The notes under the pieces are model-generated. The model was not told the DNA's origin. It saw only the letters and a program-made list of their open reading frames with translations, and searched no databases. Of a stretch of DNA of 64,000 nt, positions 54,195-64,000 are shown in pieces. Location: NCBI GenBank assembly GCA_016719755.1, contig JADJYM010000015.1:558001-622000 (forward strand), given 5' to 3'. This DNA is from Novosphingobium sp. Its GTDB lineage: Bacteria; Pseudomonadota; Alphaproteobacteria; Sphingomonadales; Sphingomonadaceae. How positions within the stretch are numbered: the stretch's first letter is position 1; each line of letters opens with the position of its first letter. The translations under genes and the position numbers were made by a program.

Positions 54195-56081
54195 ATGCGC
54201 AAGGCCATGCTGACAGCTGCGCTGCTGATGACGACAACCGCCCTGGTTTCGGGCTGCGACGGCCCGCGCGGCGGTTTCGGCGGCAAGTCGGGAGTCAAGG
54301 ACACTGCCTATCCGGAACAGGTGTTCTGGGGCGATACCCACCTTCATACCGGCAATTCAGTCGATGCCTTCGGCTTCGGCGCCCGCCTGACACCGGAGGA
54401 CGCGCTCCGCTTCGCCCGTGGCGAAGAGGTCAAGTCTTCCACCGGGCTTGCGGCCAAGCTTGAGCGCCCGCTCGACTTTCTGGTGATTGCCGACCACGCC
54501 GAAGGAATCGGCGCAACCAAGGCGCTTTATGATGCGCCGCGCATGCTGATCAGCGATCCCACCCTGCTCCGCTGGCACGATCTGATGCATGAAGGACCGG
54601 CAGGTTCGCTCAAGGCCACTGGCGAGATCCTTCAGGCCCGGGGCCAGAACAAGCTGCCCCCCGGGCTCAACGATCCGGTCAAGGGCGCCGAGCGCACCCG
54701 CAAGATCTGGGACGAAAACATCGACACGGTCGAACGCTATAACGAGCCCGGCAAGTTCACCGCCTTCATTGGCTTCGAATACACGCTGATGCAGGGCGGC
54801 AACAACCTGCACCGCAATGTGATCTTCCGTGATGGCAAGGACAAGGCCAGCAAGGTCGTCCCCCTCGATCCCAGCAGCGCCGCCTGGCCAGAGCACCTGT
54901 GGGATTACATGGAGGCCTACGAGAAGAGCACCGGCGGCAAGGTGCTGGCCATCCCCCACAATTCCAACGTCTCCAACGGGCTGATGTTCATGCTGACCGA
55001 GCCGAACGGTGGTCCGATCAGCGCAGCCTATGCCCGCCGCCGCGCTGCGCGCGAACCGGTGGTGGAGATCACCCAGATCAAGGGGGACAGCGAAGCCCAT
55101 CCCTTCATGTCGCCCAACGACGAGTTCGCCGGTTATGGCACGGTCGGCTGGGACACCAACAACCTGATCTTCAACCAGCCCACCAAGCAGAGCGAACTGC
55201 CCGGCAGCTATGTGCGCGAGGCGCTTAAGCGCGGCCTGCTGATCGAGCAGCGCACTGGCGTGAACCCTTACAAGGTCGGCGTGATTGGATCGAGCGACAG
55301 CCATACCGGTCTCGCCACGGTTGATGAGAACAATTTCTTCGGCAAGCATTCCGGCGTGGAACCCAGCCCGCAGCGCGCCACGGCCGGTTTCGTTCCCGGC
55401 ATGAACAGCGGTCGGATGAACTGGCAGGCGCTTGCCAGCGGCTATGCGGCGGTCTGGGCAACGTCCAACAGCCGCGAGGCAATCTTCGACGCGATGATGC
55501 GGCGCGAAGTCTATGCCACCACCGGTCCGCGCATGACAGTGCGGGTGTTCGGCGGCTGGGACTTCAAGGCCGACGACCTCAAGGGCGACTGGGTCAAGGC
55601 CGGTTATGCGCGCGGCGTGCCGATGGGCGGCAGCCTGAAGCCGGGAGGAGCGGGCGCACCAAGCTTCATCCTCTCGGCGCTCAAGGATCCGGTGGGTGCC
55701 AATCTCGACCGGGTGCAGGTCGTCAAGGGCTGGGTCGACAAGGCAGGCGTCAGCCACGAACAGGTCTTCGACGTGGTCTGGAGCGACATGGACAAGCGCA
55801 AGGCCGCCGGCGGCAAGGTGCCATCGGTTGGCGATACGGTCGATACGACCCGCGCCACCTATGAGAATTCGATTGGCGCGCCGAGCCTGGCCACGGTCTG
55901 GACCGATCCCGCCTTCGATCCGAAGGTCCGCGCGTTCTACTATGTTCGCGTGCTGGAAATTCCGACCCCGACCTGGCTCAATTACGACATGGTCAAGTAC
56001 AAGCTGAAGTTCGGCCCGGAAATCCCGCTCAAGCAGCAGGAGCGCGCCTATACCTCGGCAATCTGGTATACGCCGACCTGA
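54195..56081 (+). CDS. DUF3604 lipoprotein, copy 2
   Basis: Also 628 residues, with lipobox ALVSGC and the same motifs ('FWGDTHLHTGNSVDAFGFG', 'IADHAEGIGATK', 'GSSDSHTGL'). Most of the alignment with copy 1 is identical by eye; differences cluster in the signal, near residues 140-150 and 330-420. It ends one base before the next gene's ATG, so it is operonic with the parvulin-like gene. Confidence 0.9.
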   Translation: MRKAMLTAALLMTTTALVSGCDGPRGGFGGKSGVKDTAYPEQVFWGDTHLHTGNSVDAFGFGARLTPEDALRFARGEEVKSSTGLAAKLERPLDFLVIADHAEGIGATKALYDAPRMLISDPTLLRWHDLMHEGPAGSLKATGEILQARGQNKLPPGLNDPVKGAERTRKIWDENIDTVERYNEPGKFTAFIGFEYTLMQGGNNLHRNVIFRDGKDKASKVVPLDPSSAAWPEHLWDYMEAYEKSTGGKVLAIPHNSNVSNGLMFMLTEPNGGPISAAYARRRAAREPVVEITQIKGDSEAHPFMSPNDEFAGYGTVGWDTNNLIFNQPTKQSELPGSYVREALKRGLLIEQRTGVNPYKVGVIGSSDSHTGLATVDENNFFGKHSGVEPSPQRATAGFVPGMNSGRMNWQALASGYAAVWATSNSREAIFDAMMRREVYATTGPRMTVRVFGGWDFKADDLKGDWVKAGYARGVPMGGSLKPGGAGAPSFILSALKDPVGANLDRVQVVKGWVDKAGVSHEQVFDVVWSDMDKRKAAGGKVPSVGDTVDTTRATYENSIGAPSLATVWTDPAFDPKVRAFYYVRVLEIPTPTWLNYDMVKYKLKFGPEIPLKQQERAYTSAIWYTPT

Positions 56082-56082
56082 C

Positions 56083-56910
56083 ATGAACCTTGCCCAGCCG
56101 GGACGGCAGCTCCTGCGGGAGCCGCTGGTCCATTTCCTCATCGCCGGTGCGGCGGTTTTCTGGCTGCTGTCGGGCCGCGCGCCGGACCTTGGCGAGCGCC
56201 GGATCGTGGTCAACGAACAGGTCGTTTCCGGCCTCGTCCAGCGCTGGACCGATACCTTTCGTCGTCCGCCCAGTCAGGACGAGATCGACGGCCTGATCCG
56301 CGACTATGTGCAGGACCAGGTCTATTACCGCGAGGCCCTGAGCCTGGGGCTGGACCAGGAGGACGAGGTCGTGGTGCGGCGGATGCGCCGCAAGATGGAA
56401 TCGCTCGCCGTCGCCGAGGCGGAAAGCGCCGAGCCGGGCGATGCTGTGCTGCAGGCCATGATCGACAAGGACCCGGCGCGTTACTCTGACGATGCCCGCA
56501 CCAGCTTCGACCAGATCTACCTCGGCGCGGACAATCCCGCCAACCGCGCCGCCGCCGATGCCGCGCTAACCCGCTTGCGCAAGGGAGAACAGGTGGCGGG
56601 GGTTGCCGCCCCCCTCCCGTCGCATCAGGACGAGGCTTCGGACGAGGCTATCGCGGGCACCTATGGCGACGAATTCGTGCTGGCTTTGCGCCGCACGCCG
56701 CCGGGGCAATGGGCCGGTCCAGTGGCCTCGGGTCTTGGTCTGCATCTCGTCCGGATTGCTGCCCGGACCGCCCCGACAAAGCCCAGCCTAGACAAGGTCC
56801 GCCAGCGCGTGACCAACGACTGGCGAGCCGCTGCTATAGCCAGGGCGCGCGACGAATCCTATCGCCGGATTCTGGAAGGCTACGACGTGGTGATCGTGCG
56901 GCCAAAATGA
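56083..56910 (+). CDS. Membrane-anchored parvulin-like peptidyl-prolyl isomerase
   Basis: A 275-residue protein with an N-terminal membrane anchor (about residues 17-33), a SurA-like helical region and a weak PpiC-type domain ('DDARTSFDQIYLG', 'GPVASGLGLHLVRIAAR'). It is a likely periplasmic folding helper. It lies between the DUF3604 genes and a HupE/UreJ-like gene, a grouping I recall from other proteobacteria, so it may chaperone those products. Its TGA overlaps the next ATG (ATGA). Confidence 0.8.
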   Translation: MNLAQPGRQLLREPLVHFLIAGAAVFWLLSGRAPDLGERRIVVNEQVVSGLVQRWTDTFRRPPSQDEIDGLIRDYVQDQVYYREALSLGLDQEDEVVVRRMRRKMESLAVAEAESAEPGDAVLQAMIDKDPARYSDDARTSFDQIYLGADNPANRAAADAALTRLRKGEQVAGVAAPLPSHQDEASDEAIAGTYGDEFVLALRRTPPGQWAGPVASGLGLHLVRIAARTAPTKPSLDKVRQRVTNDWRAAAIARARDESYRRILEGYDVVIVRPK

Positions 56911-57890
56911 CCCTGCTGCTGCGCCTGCTGCTTATGCTGGTGGCCTGTTGCGCCGCCCTGCCCGCCCACGCTGACGAACTGCGGCCGGGCTACCTGGAAC
57001 TGACCCAGAAGGACGCGCAGCACTGGCGCATGGTCTGGAAGGCCCCGGTGCTGGGTGGGTTGGCTACCCGCGCCCGTCCGGCTTTCCCGGAATTCTGCAC
57101 CCAGTCCCCGCCGGTCGCCCGATTGGAAGGTGCCGCGCTGGTGGCGGAGTCCACCCTCACCTGCAGCCGTGATCTGGCCGGTGCGCAAGTCGGTCTGGCC
57201 GGGATGGAGGCAACCTTTACCGACGCGCTGGTGCGGATCGCGCCGCTGGACCGGGCGATGCAGGCCGAGCGCCTGACCCGATCCAACACCATGGTCACCG
57301 TGGCCACAGTGCCCGATCGCTGGGAAGTTGCCCGCAGCTATACCGCACTGGGCGTGATCCACATTCTTGAAGGCTACGACCACCTGCTGTTCGTGATTGC
57401 ACTGGTCCTGCTGATCGGCAGACCGGTTGCCGTAATCAAGGCGGCAACCGCGTTCACCCTAGCCCACTCGATCACGCTGGCGGGAACGACGCTAGGCCTG
57501 TTCGGGCTTGCCCAGGCCCCGGTCGAGGCGCTGATCGCCCTCTCCATCGTGTTCCTCGCGGTCGAAATCGTGAAGCAGAAGCCCGGCGAACCGCGCCTCT
57601 CAGAGCGGGTGCCGTGGATGATCGCCTTCCTGTTCGGTCTGCTCCACGGTTTCGGCTTCGCGGGCGCCCTGCGCGAGATCGGCCTGCCGGACGGCGATGT
57701 GCCGGTGGCGCTGCTGACCTTCAATATCGGTGTCGAACTGGGGCAACTGGTCATCATCGCCGCGTGCCTCACCCTTCTGGCGCTGATACGTCGCCTGAAA
57801 CCGACCGCGCTGCGTCCCGCCACTCTGGCAGCGACCTATCTGATCGGTATCACCGCCAGCTTCTGGTTCATCGAACGGGTAACTGGCTGA
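56907..57890 (+). CDS. HupE/UreJ-family membrane protein
   Basis: A 327-residue protein: signal peptide (cleavage near 'AHADELRPG'), a periplasmic beta domain of about 120 residues, then about six helices carrying 'GVIHILEGYDHLLFV' and 'FGLLHGFGFAGAL', the HupE/UreJ_2 signatures. HupE/UreJ proteins are nickel or cobalt permeases, but this subgroup with an N-terminal domain is of unknown substrate. The histidine pairs could bind metal. Confidence 0.85.
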   Translation: MTLLLRLLLMLVACCAALPAHADELRPGYLELTQKDAQHWRMVWKAPVLGGLATRARPAFPEFCTQSPPVARLEGAALVAESTLTCSRDLAGAQVGLAGMEATFTDALVRIAPLDRAMQAERLTRSNTMVTVATVPDRWEVARSYTALGVIHILEGYDHLLFVIALVLLIGRPVAVIKAATAFTLAHSITLAGTTLGLFGLAQAPVEALIALSIVFLAVEIVKQKPGEPRLSERVPWMIAFLFGLLHGFGFAGALREIGLPDGDVPVALLTFNIGVELGQLVIIAACLTLLALIRRLKPTALRPATLAATYLIGITASFWFIERVTG

Positions 57891-57892
57891 CC

Positions 57893-58873
57893 GTGGCTGC
57901 GCCGTCCCGACTCTACGGGCTGGACGCGCTTCGCGGAATCGCCGCGCTGTGCGTAGTGGGGCTGCATGCCCACGCGATCTTCCCGTATTTCCCCGACGTG
58001 CTGGGCAAGGGCTACCTTGGCGTCGATTTCTTCCTGATGCTGTCCGGCTACCTGATGGCGCGCATCACCGAGCCACGGCTTGCCGCCGGGCTTACCGCAA
58101 CAAACTTCCTCAAGGCCCGTTACAAGCGGTTCTGGCCAACCGTCGCGTTTGGCTCGCTGATCGGCATTCCGTTCCTGTGGGTCCGGACCCAGGGCGATCC
58201 GCTGTGGTTCGGCGCGGCGCTGGGCGCAAACATGGCGCTCCTGCCCTTCCCCGCCGATCACCTGCTGTTCCCGCTGAACGTGCCGGCATGGACGATCTTC
58301 GCCGAGCTCGCCGCCAATGCCGTCCATGTGCTGTGGCTGCGCAGGGTGGGACTGCGCACGCTTGCCATCATCGGGCTGGCGCTCCTTGCGGCGACCTTGT
58401 GGAGCGGCATCGCCTATGGCTCGCTCGATTCAGGTGCGCGGCCATCGAACGCAGTCTACGGCTTGCCGCGCGTGTTCTTCGCCTATGTCCTTGGGATGCT
58501 GCTGTGGCGGTGCCGGGGTCTGCCGGAGCGTTTGCCGATGCCGGCCTGGCTGGCCCTGCCGGCAATGCCCATCGCCATGCTGCTGGCCTGGGCCATGGGA
58601 TGGCGCGGCTGGCCGTTTGATCTGATCTTCGTCACCGCGCTCTGCCCCTTGGTCATCGCCGGTGCGCTGCGGATCGCGCGCGATACCGCCCCTGCGCGTT
58701 TTTCGGCCGAGTTCTCGTTCCCGCTGTTTGCCGTGCACGTTCCCGTGCTTGAGGCTGTGCGAATGGCCGGATACGGGGTGCTGGTGGGCGTTCCGGCCGC
58801 TTTCGCCGTCACGCTCGCCTACCTGTGGTGGACAAACTGGCGCCGCCCGATAAGGCAGGCCGCATCAACCTGA
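57893..58873 (+). CDS. Acyltransferase 3-family membrane protein
   Basis: A 326-residue polytopic protein starting at GTG. 'YGLDALRGIAALCVVGLHAH' and 'GYLGVDFFLMLSGYLMAR' are the conserved acyltransferase-3 motifs (catalytic-type His in the first helix). Such proteins O-acylate envelope sugars. It follows the HupE/UreJ gene by two bases and precedes the hydratase by 11, so it seems part of the same transcript. Confidence 0.85.
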   Translation: MAAPSRLYGLDALRGIAALCVVGLHAHAIFPYFPDVLGKGYLGVDFFLMLSGYLMARITEPRLAAGLTATNFLKARYKRFWPTVAFGSLIGIPFLWVRTQGDPLWFGAALGANMALLPFPADHLLFPLNVPAWTIFAELAANAVHVLWLRRVGLRTLAIIGLALLAATLWSGIAYGSLDSGARPSNAVYGLPRVFFAYVLGMLLWRCRGLPERLPMPAWLALPAMPIAMLLAWAMGWRGWPFDLIFVTALCPLVIAGALRIARDTAPARFSAEFSFPLFAVHVPVLEAVRMAGYGVLVGVPAAFAVTLAYLWWTNWRRPIRQAAST

Positions 58874-58884
58874 GGAGAACCGCC

Positions 58885-59691
58885 GTGGACAGCCCCGTGC
58901 TCTACGAAGTCGACGCCCAGGGCATTGCCCTGCTGACCATCAACCGCCCCGAACTGCGCAACCCGATCTCTGACAGCGAAGTCGTCGAAGGTGTGCTTCA
59001 AGCGCTGGACCGGATCGAGGGTGATCCATCCGTGCGCGTTGCGATCCTGACCGGTGCGGGCAAGGCCTTCTCCTCTGGCGGCAACATCAACGCGATGAAG
59101 CCGGGCGGCGGCGGCCTGAACGATGGCCTGCCGGCGCGCACGCGCGGCAACTACAAGCGCGGCATTCAGCGGCTGCCGCTGGCCTTCGCGGCACTGGAAG
59201 TACCAGTCATCGCCGCTGTCAACGGCCCGGCGATCGGCGCGGGCCTTGACCTGGCCTGCATGTGCGATCTGCGGATCGCGGGTGAAAGCGCCAAGTTCGC
59301 GGAAAGCTTCGTCAAGCTGGGGATCATTCCCGGTGACGGCGGAGCCTGGCTGCTGCAACGCGTGATCGGCTTCTCCAAGGCGGCGGAACTTTCGCTGACC
59401 GGCGATACGATCGGTGCTGCCGAAGCCCTCGCCTGCGGCCTCGTCTCGCGCGTGGTTCCAGATGATCAACTGCTCGACGCGGCGCGCGAGCTGGCGGCGA
59501 AGATCGCTTCGAACCCGCCCTTCGCGGTGCGGATGACCAAGCGCCTGCTATGGGAAGCCCGCCGCGCGGACCTTGCCACCGTGCTGGAAATGTCAGCCGC
59601 GATGCAGGCCGTTTCGCACGCCACACAGGACCATGACGAGGCGGTTAACGCCTTCCTGGAAAAGAGAAATCCTGTCTTCAAGGGGGACTGA
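58885..59691 (+). CDS. Enoyl-CoA hydratase/isomerase family protein
   Basis: A 268-residue crotonase. Oxyanion-hole motifs are 'GAGKAFSSGGNI' and 'NGPAIGAGLDLACMCD', and the acidic residue region is 'KLGIIPGDGGAWLL'. The GTG start has an ideal TGAGGAGAAC ribosome-binding site. The exact substrate cannot be told. It ends 23 bases before the palindrome that precedes the riboflavin operon. Confidence 0.9.
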   Translation: MDSPVLYEVDAQGIALLTINRPELRNPISDSEVVEGVLQALDRIEGDPSVRVAILTGAGKAFSSGGNINAMKPGGGGLNDGLPARTRGNYKRGIQRLPLAFAALEVPVIAAVNGPAIGAGLDLACMCDLRIAGESAKFAESFVKLGIIPGDGGAWLLQRVIGFSKAAELSLTGDTIGAAEALACGLVSRVVPDDQLLDAARELAAKIASNPPFAVRMTKRLLWEARRADLATVLEMSAAMQAVSHATQDHDEAVNAFLEKRNPVFKGD

Positions 59692-59699
59692 ACACACCC

Positions 59700-59742
59700 G
59701 ATGTGATTCGCGTTGGAGTATCACATTATAATGTGATACTCC
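59700..59742. promoter_or_regulatory. 28-bp perfect palindrome and extra half-site before the riboflavin operon
   Basis: Bases 59715-59742 are a perfect 28-bp palindrome: GGAGTATCACATTA followed by its reverse complement, core TCACATT-AT-AATGTGA. A further half-site GATGTGAT lies at 59700-59707. The palindrome ends 7 bases before the ATG of the HTH-RibBX gene, so a bound protein would block transcription or initiation. The 58-base gap leaves no room for an FMN riboswitch. Confidence 0.85.
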
Positions 59743-59749
59743 CCGAATC

Positions 59750-61015
59750 ATGGATAAAAACATCATTGAGCGGGTTCGTCGGCTGGTTACCGATGGGGGC
59801 ATGTCGCGGTCGGGGCTGGCGCGGGCAGCGGGGCTGCATGCGAACACGCTGCGCGACTGCACGGACGAGGCCTGGAACCCTACTGCGGAAACTCTGCGCA
59901 AGCTCGAGCAGTTCCTGTGGGACAGCGACGAGGAGCCGGTCCTCGTCCCCATCGAGGAGATCATTGACGAGGCCCGCAATGGCCGGATGTTCATCCTGGT
60001 CGACGACGAGGACCGCGAGAACGAGGGCGATCTGGTGATCCCCGCACAGATGGCCACGCCCGACGCGGTCAACTTCATGGCCACCCATGGCCGAGGGCTG
60101 ATCTGCCTGACTCTGACCCGCCAGCGCACCGAACAACTCGGGCTGGAACTGATGAGCCGCAACAACGGCACCCGCCACGAAACCGCCTTCACCGTCTCGA
60201 TCGAGGCGCGCGAGGGGGTGACCACCGGCATTTCGGCCGGCGACCGCGCCCGCACCGTTGCCGTGGCGATCGATGCCGCCAAGGGCCGCGACGATATCGT
60301 CACACCCGGCCACGTCTTTCCGCTGATCGCCCGCGATGGCGGCGTGCTGGTCCGCGCCGGGCATACCGAGGCCTCGGTCGACATCTCCCGCCTCGCCGGC
60401 CTCAATCCCTCGGGCGTGATCTGCGAGATCATGAACGAGGACGGGACCATGGCGCGGATGGACGACCTCATCCCCTTCGCCCGCCGCCACGGCCTGAAGA
60501 TGGGCACGATCCGCGACCTGATCGAATACCGCCGCAAGCACGACCACCTGGTCGAGCGCGTGGCCGAAGTGCCGTTCGTTTCCGACTACGGCGGCGACTG
60601 GCGGCTGATTACCTATCGCAACAAGGTCGATGGCGCGAACAGCTTCGTGCTGCAAAAGGGCCAGATCGTCCCGGGTGAGGCGACCCTGGCGCGGGTCCAC
60701 ACGATCTCGATCCTCGATGACATGCTGGGCCAGCCTGGCCCGCGCAAGCGCACGCTCCAGCGCGCCATGGCCGAGATCGGGCGCGAGGGCAGCGGGCTGA
60801 TCGTCCTGCTGATCAACCCGACCGAGGCTGGCAGCAACGCGGGCAGTTCCACGGCCCCCGACATGGACCTGCGCTCCTATGGCATCGGCGCTCAGATCCT
60901 GGCGGACCTTGGCGTCCACGCGATGATCCTGCTGACCAATTCGCATCGCAACGTCGTCGCCATCGAAGGCTACGGCATCAACATCCTCGGCGAACGCGCC
61001 ATTCCTGCGGAGTAA
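59750..61015 (+). CDS. ribBX: XRE-type HTH fused to RibBX (DHBP synthase plus degenerate RibA domain)
   Basis: A 421-residue three-part protein. Residues about 18-55 are a helix-turn-helix ('MSRSGLARAAGLHANTL', 'WNPTAETLRKLEQFL'). Residues about 65-270 are 3,4-dihydroxy-2-butanone 4-phosphate synthase with the Mg/acidic motif DDEDRENEGD (85-94) and 'GHTEASVD'. The rest is GTP cyclohydrolase II-like ('YGIGAQILADLGV', 'LLTNS') but lacks the zinc cysteines and the 'QEGRxIGL' region, as in the RibBX variant. It should make the four-carbon precursor of riboflavin and may bind its own palindromic promoter. Confidence 0.9.
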   Translation: MDKNIIERVRRLVTDGGMSRSGLARAAGLHANTLRDCTDEAWNPTAETLRKLEQFLWDSDEEPVLVPIEEIIDEARNGRMFILVDDEDRENEGDLVIPAQMATPDAVNFMATHGRGLICLTLTRQRTEQLGLELMSRNNGTRHETAFTVSIEAREGVTTGISAGDRARTVAVAIDAAKGRDDIVTPGHVFPLIARDGGVLVRAGHTEASVDISRLAGLNPSGVICEIMNEDGTMARMDDLIPFARRHGLKMGTIRDLIEYRRKHDHLVERVAEVPFVSDYGGDWRLITYRNKVDGANSFVLQKGQIVPGEATLARVHTISILDDMLGQPGPRKRTLQRAMAEIGREGSGLIVLLINPTEAGSNAGSSTAPDMDLRSYGIGAQILADLGVHAMILLTNSHRNVVAIEGYGINILGERAIPAE

Positions 61016-61021
61016 GCCCAC

Positions 61022-61441
61022 ATGGCCCGTTTCCTTATCGTCGAAGCCCGGTTCTATGACCACCTCAACGACATGCTGGTCGAAGGCGCGCGCGCGGCGC
61101 TGAAAGCCGCCGGACACCAGGTGGACGTCATCACCGTCCCCGGCGCGCTCGAAATCCCTGGCGCCATCGCCCTGGCCGATCAGGCGCAGCTTTATGATGG
61201 CTATGTCGGCATCGGCGTGGTGATCCGGGGCGAAACCTATCATTTCGAGATCGTCGCTGGCGAAAGCGCGCGCGGGATCATGGCGCTGACCATGGATGGC
61301 ATCGCCATCGGCAACGGCATCCTGACAGTCGAAAACGAGGCTCAGGCCCTGGTCCGCGCCGACCCTGGCCAGAAGGACAAGGGCGGCGAAGCGGCCAAGG
61401 CGGCCATGGCCCTGCTCGCCCTGCGCGAGAAGTTCGCGTGA
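61022..61441 (+). CDS. ribH: 6,7-dimethyl-8-ribityllumazine synthase
   Basis: A 139-residue enzyme joining the RibB product to the pyrimidine to form lumazine. Motifs: '[11 protein letters not shown]', '[14 protein letters not shown]' (catalytic His), and '[13 protein letters not shown]'. The start is six bases after ribBX, and the stop overlaps the next gene's GTG. Confidence 0.95.
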
Positions 61442-62361
61442 GCGGCCATCCGGCCATCGCCGGCCTGCGGCTGGTGCTGGGCGGAAACGTGTTCGGCATG
61501 ACCGCCGACCGCGACGCCAGCTTCGCCGTGCTCGACACGTTCTACGAGCTTGGCGGGCGGATGATCGACACCGCCGAAGGGTATTCGGCATGGGTTCCCG
61601 GCCACAAGGGCGGGGAATCCGAAACGATGATCGGGCTGTGGCTCGATGCCCGGGGCGTGCGCGCGGATATGCGGATCGCCACCAAGACCAACATGTACGG
61701 CAAGCCGGGGATGCTGGCGCCCGGCAAGCTGGCCGCGGCCCTCGACGGCTCGCTTGAGCGGCTGCGCACGGATTACGTCGATCTGTTCTATGCCCACCGC
61801 GATGATCCGCAGACCCCGCTGGATGAGGTGGCCGAAGGCTTCGACGCACTGGTCAAGGCAGGGAAAATCCGCTCCAGCGGGGCTTCGAACTTCACTGCGG
61901 AGCGTCTGGCAGCCTCACTCGATGCCGCCGCGCGGGTCGGCGCGACGCCCTACACCGCACTTCAGAACGAATATAACCTTGTGGCCCGCGATCAGTACGA
62001 AGGCGCGGTTCAGGACCTGTGCGTCAAGCGCGGTGTCATCATGCTGCCCTACTACGGACTGGCCTCGGGCTTCCTGACCGGCAAGTACCGCAGCGAGGCC
62101 GATCTTGCGGGCCGAGCGCGGGGCGAAAGCGTGCGGCGCTATCTGCAAACCGGTCAGGCCGCGCTGGCCACGCTCGATGCGGTGGCGGCGGAAACCGGGG
62201 CAACCCAGGCCCAGGTCGCGCTTGCATGGATCAATGCGAAGCCCGGAATCGGCGCGCCAATTGCCAGCGCGACCAGCGCGGAGCAGGTGCGCGAACTTTG
62301 CGGCGCGGCATCACTTGTCCTTCAACCCGAACAGGTTGCCCGGCTAGACGCCGCCCGTTGA
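61438..62361 (+). CDS. Aldo/keto reductase
   Basis: A 307-residue TIM-barrel NADPH oxidoreductase. The catalytic Asp-Tyr pair appears in '[11 protein letters not shown]', the Lys in 'IATKTNMYG', and the His in 'LFYAHRDDP'. It is coupled to ribH by a GTGA overlap, so its placement in the riboflavin operon is firm, but no riboflavin role is known for this family. Confidence 0.88.
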
Positions 62362-62371
62362 GCGCCGTCTG

Positions 62372-63202
62372 GTGATCGATATTGCCGCCCTGCTGATGGT
62401 CGCCTCGGGGGCGATCCATGCGGTGGTCAATGCAGTATTGAAGTCCGGCGGCGACAAGATGTCGGGCCGGGCGCTGATCGATGGATTCAGTGCGCTGATC
62501 GTCGTCCCGCTGCTGTTCTTCGTGCCTTTTCCGCGCGAATCCCTGCCCTGGCTGGCGGGATCGATGCTGACCCACCTGTTCTACCTGCTGTGCCTGATCA
62601 AGGCCTTCGAGGCGGCGGACATGAGCGCGGTCTACCCGGTGATGCGCGGCAGCGCGCCGGTGATTGCCGCGCTTGTGGCGGTGCTGGCGTTTGGCGAGCC
62701 GATCACCTGGCCGGTGGCGGCGGGGGTGTTGCTGGTCAGCCTGGGCACGGTGGCGGTGGCCTGGTGGCATACCCCGGGCAGGCGCGCGCTGGGCTGGGCA
62801 CTGGCGACCGGGGCGATGACCGCGCTTTATACTGTGATCGACGCGCAAGGGGTGCGCGCCGCGCCTTCTGCGCTGTCCTATTTCGCGTGGTTTTTCTTTA
62901 CCTTGGGGCTGACCATCTCGGCCCTGTTCGCGGTCTGGCGCGGCCCCCGGTTCGTGCTGGCGGCGCGCTCGCAGTGGAAGCCCGGGCTGTTCGCGGGGGT
63001 GCTTTCGCTGGTCACTTACGGGATCGCGCTGCTCGCCTACCGGCTGGGCGACGTGCCGCGCCTTGCGGCGCTGCGCGAGACGTCGATCCTGTTCGGCGTG
63101 GCCATCGCGGCGCTCGTCCTGAAGGAGCGGGTCGGCCCGGCGCGACTGGCCGGTGCGGGCCTGATCGCCGTCGGCGCGGCGGTGCTTTTGACCGTGCATT
63201 GA
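62372..63202 (+). CDS. EamA-family (DMT) transporter
   Basis: A 276-residue membrane protein with about ten helices in two EamA repeats ('FEAADMSAVYPVMRGSAPVIAAL', 'RLGDVPRLAALRETSILFGV'). It starts with GTG 10 bases after the aldo/keto reductase. RibN-type riboflavin carriers of alphaproteobacteria are also EamA proteins, so a flavin transport role is a reasonable guess from operon context. Confidence 0.85.
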   Translation: MIDIAALLMVASGAIHAVVNAVLKSGGDKMSGRALIDGFSALIVVPLLFFVPFPRESLPWLAGSMLTHLFYLLCLIKAFEAADMSAVYPVMRGSAPVIAALVAVLAFGEPITWPVAAGVLLVSLGTVAVAWWHTPGRRALGWALATGAMTALYTVIDAQGVRAAPSALSYFAWFFFTLGLTISALFAVWRGPRFVLAARSQWKPGLFAGVLSLVTYGIALLAYRLGDVPRLAALRETSILFGVAIAALVLKERVGPARLAGAGLIAVGAAVLLTVH

Positions 63203-63333
63203 ACGGCATCAAGCGCCACCAAGCGGCTCACAGCGCCACCGAGCGGTGGAGTTAGGCAGGCAGACCACAGCCGAAAACGGCATCGATTCCGGTTCCCGAA
63301 CCTTTCCCATACCCAGATACAGGTTGGATTTCG

Positions 63334-63359
63334 ATCACATCGATCACATTGAAATGTGA
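63334..63359. promoter_or_regulatory. Second copy of the riboflavin-operon palindrome core
   Basis: TCACATT-GA-AATGTGA at 63344-63359 repeats the core of the palindrome at 59721-59736 with the same 2-base spacer. A neighbouring ATCACATC half-site lies at 63334-63341, as the upstream site also has. It lies between convergent genes, 141 bases after the transporter stop, so direct promoter control is not obvious. Confidence 0.55.
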
Positions 63360-63428
63360 AATTTGTTGGATTCGCTTCCGTTTTCCAACATTTGGCGCCC
63401 CCTCCCAGCGGGTGCGGAAAGACCTTTC

Positions 63429-63950
63429 CTACAGCGGTTTGCAGATGTTGGAACGCCGCGCCTGATCCGCAACCGCGAACAGCTCCGCCGTGGGTGCAAG
63501 CCGCCGGTCGAGGATCACGCCCCTGGCGAACTTCGCCCGGACCACCTGCTCACCGACCGGAACCGCCTGCCCCTCCTTCGCCAGGACAAAGCGGATGCCT
63601 TGCGGGTACTGGGCGGTGTCGAACACGGCGATATTGTCAGTCCGGGCGTCGAACACCGAGATCGAGACATAGCCCTGATCCGGCGATGGCGCGGCGCTGA
63701 CCAGCACCGGCCCGCGTGACAGGTCGTAGACGCAGCTGGCATAGGCCAGATCGGGCGACGGGCGAACCACGCCGCGCGATTTTTCGGTGGTGCGCGGGCC
63801 GAACTGGAAGCCGTTCACGATCTTGCCGTCCTGCGACATCTTGGTCAGCGCGACGTGCATGATCAGGCGCGGCGCGGCAACGATCGCGCCAAGGTGCCCG
63901 GCGGCGACCGCCAGCACAAAGGCCAGGGCGTACTTGACTGGCGCCTTCAT
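63429..63950 (-). CDS. DUF1254 domain-containing protein
   Basis: A 173-residue protein with an N-terminal membrane helix ('YALAFVLAVAAGHLGAIVAA') and a beta-rich periplasmic domain matching the short DUF1254 form ('RPSPDLAYASCVYDLSRGPV', 'YVSISVFDARTDNIAVFD'). In sphingomonads it often lies beside a DUF1214 gene, which would be just outside the window. The start at 63950 matches the family; five more codons are open upstream. Function unknown. Confidence 0.78.
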   Translation of the reverse strand: MKAPVKYALAFVLAVAAGHLGAIVAAPRLIMHVALTKMSQDGKIVNGFQFGPRTTEKSRGVVRPSPDLAYASCVYDLSRGPVLVSAAPSPDQGYVSISVFDARTDNIAVFDTAQYPQGIRFVLAKEGQAVPVGEQVVRAKFARGVILDRRLAPTAELFAVADQARRSNICKPL

Positions 63951-64000
63951 GCCCGGCCTCCGCAATCGAGCCGGCTGATCTTCGGCATCGGGATCGATCC

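Follow-up and report, generated by a model that had tools for sequence, protein, structure and literature searches.

HTH-RibBX, an enzyme of riboflavin synthesis with an XRE-type DNA-binding domain, probably controls its own production in most of the genomes examined in the family of Novosphingobium sp.

Introduction

Metabolic enzymes which also regulate the genes of their own pathway, such as BirA, PutA and NadR, are known as trigger enzymes. To our knowledge, the control of vitamin B2 synthesis in bacteria without an FMN riboswitch on the ribB operon is still mostly an open question. A locus of Novosphingobium sp. raises this question in a particular form, namely whether an enzyme of riboflavin synthesis may serve as the regulator of its own gene. 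The locus lies in a stretch of 64,000 nucleotides (contig JADJYM010000015.1, positions 558,001 to 622,000 of the forward strand), which is called the window here. A reading of the letters of this stretch, made without database searches (the sequence-only reading), drew attention to it. We have now analysed the protein, its upstream DNA and their counterparts in related genomes.

Results

The HTH-RibBX gene (59750..61015, + strand) starts with ATG and encodes a protein of 421 aa, as assigned from the open reading frame, Pfam matches and alignments. The three-part fusion described in the sequence-only reading was thus confirmed: an XRE-type helix-turn-helix (HTH) domain (residues about 2-58, HTH core 19-38) is followed by a RibB/DHBP synthase domain (residues 69-260; Pfam DHBP_synthase, E 8e-84) and a degenerate GTP cyclohydrolase II (RibA) domain, RibX (residues 269-414; Pfam GTP_cyclohydro2, E 2e-30). 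The RibB domain is complete, and the residues E87, R89, E90, E92, D94, T159, H188 and E207, which we take to belong to the RibB active site, are unchanged in 43 aligned sequences (the window protein and 42 of at least 80 listed loci). The AlphaFold model of HTH-RibBX (mean pLDDT 84.9, pTM 0.67) contains HTH helices at residues 2-14, 20-26 and 46-58; no helix is assigned in it at the expected recognition helix (27-45), a block with pLDDT 81-89. The same genome carries a second DHBP-synthase-like ORF (L319, C16:608335-608901, - strand) with the altered active-site motif DAETRKNEGH, next to which lie genes that by eye resemble those for acyl-CoA dehydrogenase and CoA-transferase.

The RibX domain lacks the EGRGIGL loop of true RibA, and a separate true RibA is encoded elsewhere in the genome. 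At the three zinc-cysteine positions, cysteine was found in 0, 0 and 2 of 146 HTH proteins and in none of 34 HTH-less RibBX proteins (this comparison excluded the canonical RibBA of genome G164 as well as any translation that was short or interrupted). The sequence-only reading had suggested that this domain could sense a flavin or GTP and thereby switch DNA binding. The degenerate RibA domain was rejected as a hallmark of a regulatory version of the enzyme: it is equally degenerate in the proteins without HTH and is, by itself, no evidence of sensing.

The HTH domain of the window protein scores under the Pfam cut-offs (HTH_31, E 0.09), as does the best HTH_3 match among 12 aligned HTH members (E 0.00076), and a comparison with PDB sequences gave insignificant matches only. 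When run against 385 Alphaproteobacteria genomes, the profile built from the 12 members led to regulators of the XRE/Cro-CI kind which themselves score above the HTH_3 cut-off, namely a repressor of the S24 type and an XRE regulator with a cupin partner. Residues G28, L29, H30, N32, L34, R35, W42, N43, P44 and T48 are invariant in 148/148 aligned HTH proteins. The highest covariation between HTH residues and operator bases was that of residue 23 with operator position 17, by a statistic which ignores kinship.

HTH-RibB fusions were confined to the window's family among the matches listed for 385 Alphaproteobacteria and 118 order genomes, with up to 15 candidates per genome scored in the class and up to 50 in the order. 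The top-scoring non-RibB relatives of the HTH among the matches from the class are short open frames of 78 and 110 aa from other Alphaproteobacteria (L288 and L289), for which Pfam gave no match with an E-value of 0.01 or lower. Another family of the same order provided two genomes (G607 and G646) in which CoaBC, an enzyme of coenzyme A synthesis with Flavoprotein and DFP domains, bears at its N-terminus an HTH that this profile also matches (L312:988-2481 and L313:806-2290, both on the - strand). These genes sit behind a UbiB-like gene (by eye), and no operator at ≥10/12 was found in the DNA upstream of them.

A perfect 28-bp palindrome, GGAGTATCACATTATAATGTGATACTCC, occupies positions 59715..59742, and 7 bases (59743-59749) separate its end from the ATG, just as the sequence-only reading had it. 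Within the window, the palindrome is the sole match with up to three mismatches (mean of 100 shuffles 0), and its 22-bp core matches itself alone in the 3.7-Mb genome at the same tolerance. The complete 28-bp symmetry is a property of the window's genome (1/147 sites). The element conserved among the relatives is the shorter (A)TCACAT-N4-ATGTGA(T) of 16-18 bp, represented in the window by operator O1, TCACAT-TATA-ATGTGA (59721..59736), inside the palindrome.

A match is present in 193/199 family genomes. The main set consisted of one gene per genome from 184 genomes, 149 with HTH (72 genera) and 35 without, and eight more genomes were placed in an additional set; G176, in which the gene is split across contigs, was left out of both. 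The 35 HTH-less genes include the canonical RibBA gene of G164, so that HTH-less RibBX occurs in 34/184 genomes. Operators were scored as the best TCACAT-N4-ATGTGA over 12 positions, within 130 bp upstream of HTH genes and over a longer stretch of 330 bp upstream of HTH-less genes.

The sequence-only reading would have been contradicted by relatives that carry the HTH without the palindrome. An operator of at least 10/12 was found in 147/149 HTH genomes (79 at 12/12, 51 at 11, 17 at 10), with the two others (L096 and L210) at 9, versus 0/35 HTH-less genes, among which two reached 9 (G024 and G170) and none scored higher. All 12 additional HTH genes (eight belonging to the additional set of the family, four obtained by searching the order) reached at least 10/12, and so did all 11 named loci with HTH (L002-L012) versus none of the six without it (L013-L018) among the matches listed. 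By chance, shuffled upstream stretches reached 10/12 in 151/8940 trials, and the operator was found in 1/151 far-upstream control stretches.

Gene order is the obvious confounder of this association since ribE mostly precedes the HTH-less genes. Among genes that have ribE no more than 400 bp upstream, the operator accompanied 50/50 with HTH versus 0/31 without; where there was no such ribE, the counts were 97/99 versus 0/4. Three genera (g6, g9 and g92) hold both states and all obey the HTH-operator rule. In a tree of the RibBX domains with the HTH left out, there were six independent contrasts in HTH on supported branches, and in all six the operator changed along with the HTH (median p 0.03, with values from 0.03 to 0.06; the tree included the canonical RibBA of G164). 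Without G164, four supported pairs were obtained, again all in the same direction (p 0.125), and hence the direction is consistent, while the tree test by itself is not decisive. The history of HTH gain and loss comprised nine changes of uncertain direction on a FastTree tree whose outgroup is not a single clade. As HTH and operator occur together, self-regulation through O1 is likely, and the autoregulation proposed in the sequence-only reading gains support from these counts, including those within the same gene context.

Across the 199 genomes, the exact pattern TCACAT-N4-ATGTGA occurs at 90 sites in 85 genomes, and a backwards control pattern occurs at none. The HTH-ribBX genes account for 82/90 of these sites, so the site is mostly used once, at ribBX. 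The eight exceptions are the second site of G000, those in G101:C21, G104:C10, G165:C12 and G103, a site inside ribBX of G152, G197:C1:212394 and G017:C1:215372. No riboflavin promoter was seen among the genes around five of the eight, and the ribDE and ribA loci of the window's genome (4-5 kb each) contain no site of at least 10/12. A wider regulon was rejected on the grounds that only 8/90 exact sites lie away from HTH-ribBX promoters. The window itself holds a second exact site, TCACATTGAAATGTGA (63344..63359), outside the gene cluster, after its last gene and between convergent genes. A similar element lies behind ribBX-ribH-akr in G103, and G111 and L002 are without it.

The sequence logo of 119 sites (named and genome loci mixed, at least three genomes entering twice; conclusions are drawn from the one-gene-per-genome set) reads A-TCACAT-T-N-Y-R-ATGTGA-TA and has two unmirrored additions, TTG 5-8 bases before the operator and TA directly after it. 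TTG was found at 73/102 near-ATG sites versus 3/102 for its mirror image CAA (83/147 of all sites), and TA at 67/102 versus 14 for the mirrored TA (78/147 of all sites). In the window, these correspond to a putative −35 element TTGGAG (59713..59718, + strand) and a putative weak −10 element TACTCC (59737..59742, + strand). The distance from operator start to start codon is 27-30 bp in 99/148 genes. O1 would accordingly fill the 17-18 bp spacer of the ribBX-ribH promoter, and transcription is predicted to begin in a near-leaderless manner, at the ATG itself or in its immediate vicinity. A consensus scan called no σ70 promoter at O1, which keeps the promoter placement at the level of an inference.

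Secondary operators (≥9/12) accompany the 147 sites in 73 cases versus five in the control zone, and 57 of the 73 lie at a distance of 30-33 bp, about three helical turns. An exact half-site was present in this O2 zone in 67/147 genomes and never in the control zone. In the window, the right half of O2 alone is visible, the half-site ATGTGA (59701..59706, + strand), which starts 20 bp before O1 and may be a remnant of O2.

The gene ribH for lumazine synthase (61022..61441, + strand; Pfam) starts 6 bases past the ribBX stop codon and is probably in the same transcription unit; it lies downstream in 112/149 HTH loci. The cluster continues with genes for an aldo/keto reductase and an EamA-family transporter (62372-63202, + strand), which stands at the cluster end and may move riboflavin. 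A crotonase gene lies upstream, and the gap between it and the ATG is 58 bp. The absence of an FMN riboswitch, deduced earlier from the short gap, was borne out by the Rfam search: no FMN riboswitch (RF00050) was found upstream of ribBX and no Rfam family exceeded the threshold in 56000-64000, where the two matches with E up to 1 are under the gathering scores and neither is an FMN riboswitch.

With strict filters, an FMN riboswitch was detected in 1/199 family genomes, G164 (L181). Downstream of the riboswitch are an ORF that looks RibD-like by eye and the canonical RibBA, in which the cysteines are intact and which has neither HTH nor operator. The congeners G008 and G102, the two further members sampled in this genus, carry HTH-RibBX with 12/12 operators. 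In this genus, one flavin control has apparently been swapped for another.

Discussion

In most genomes examined in the window's family, the HTH-carrying RibBX enzyme probably controls its own production. The explanation that we favour with good confidence is that HTH-RibBX is a bifunctional autorepressor, i.e. a trigger enzyme. RibB forms a dimer, and the N-terminal XRE-type HTH domains of the dimer would bind the dyad TCACAT-N4-ATGTGA of O1. As O1 would fill the −35/−10 spacer of the ribBX-ribH promoter, the bound enzyme would block RNA polymerase, and O2, about three helical turns off, would strengthen the binding through a second dimer. The rising level of the enzyme, perhaps together with a bound metabolite, would thus shut off its own synthesis. 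We infer repression from the position of O1 and cooperativity from the spacing of the operators.

The same contacts could have the opposite outcome, with the HTH bound to O1 activating transcription or merely recruiting the enzyme. The putative −10 element is weak and no consensus promoter is called, and O2 lies upstream of the −35 element as activator sites do. Moreover, in the available part of the source, the Wolbachia proteins wBmxR1 and wBmxR2 bind a riboflavin-gene promoter and are reported as activators, and stand-alone regulators activate ribA there (PMC3518464). Nevertheless, we consider this outcome unlikely, since O1 would occupy the spacer as far as the putative −10 element, a position that is typical of repression.

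It is still less probable that a separate regulator binds the palindrome and that the HTH of RibBX has another role or none. Many regulator families bind palindromes; however, the presence of the operator correlates with the HTH rather than with RibBX as such or with the neighbouring genes, the exact sites are concentrated at HTH-ribBX in the 199 genomes and the HTH residues are invariant. The idea that the palindrome works at the RNA level, folded into an attenuator or terminator hairpin, draws on its perfect 28-bp symmetry beside the start codon in the window's genome. Deviations from the consensus affect 79/882 operator base pairs at the 147 sites; 5 of them stay Watson-Crick and 24 become G-U in RNA, but 50 break the pairing and only 6 pairs are changed on both sides, which points to protein-bound DNA rather than to a hairpin. 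In addition, the full symmetry is restricted to one genome, the predicted transcription start lies downstream of the palindrome, no Rfam match exceeds the threshold and no terminator-like site was found. The hairpin was rejected on the pair-deviation counts, and we give it hardly any credence.

A more far-reaching proposal, which we regard as speculative and rather doubtful, extends autorepression by HTH-RibBX to a protein that takes the place of the FMN riboswitch. The two operators, three helical turns from each other, would be bridged by RibB dimers, which would let go of the DNA or hold it more tightly once RibX binds a flavin or a metabolite of the pathway. The combination of an XRE-type HTH with a coenzyme-making enzyme (RibB and, in two genomes of another family, the flavoprotein CoaBC) might then be a recurring self-counting design in the order.

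Among known systems, the nearest precedent in kind is archaeal RbkR, described in the accessible part of its source as a riboflavin kinase with an N-terminal HTH which is both gene regulator and enzyme, and of which an HTH-less enzyme homologue exists (PMC8305020). The two share the combination of a riboflavin-pathway enzyme with an N-terminal HTH, as far as that part of the source goes, but differ in the enzyme and in the domain of life. HTH-RibBX consists of RibB and a degenerate RibA with an XRE-type HTH, its operator is almost confined to its own gene, and the riboflavin kinase domain that marks RbkR is absent from its Pfam matches. The HTH of RbkR is also of another type than the XRE-type HTH.

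RibBX, reportedly described by Brutinel et al. in 2013, is said to combine RibB with a RibA-like domain without cyclohydrolase residues and to have no HTH; HTH-RibBX shares the two enzyme domains and differs from it in the HTH. Compared with BirA, PutA and NadR, HTH-RibBX is a candidate regulator, as judged from genome comparison, and its regulon would essentially be its own operon. In Proteobacteria, the ribB step is under feedback control by the FMN riboswitch, according to the part of the source at hand (PMC3766115). Control of the same step is proposed for HTH-RibBX, but the riboswitch was detected, with strict filters, in a single genome of this family. Like HTH-RibBX, the wBmxR proteins are riboflavin-gene regulators in an alphaproteobacterium; unlike it, they are, on the portion available, separate proteins, activators and directed to other targets.

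No description of an HTH-RibB fusion or of its operator was found in searches aimed at it in an open-licence library, most subscription papers being outside its scope. The kind of system, an enzyme that is also a regulator, is known from RbkR and the trigger enzymes; the combination of the RibB enzyme, the XRE-type HTH and the operator did not come up in those searches. The operator is precise enough for a test by one gel shift, and genomes of the same genus with and without HTH and operator provide natural controls. In a related family, two genomes carry an HTH of the same kind on CoaBC, which hints at a possible general design. In much of the window's family, control of vitamin B2 synthesis seems to have become part of the enzyme itself.
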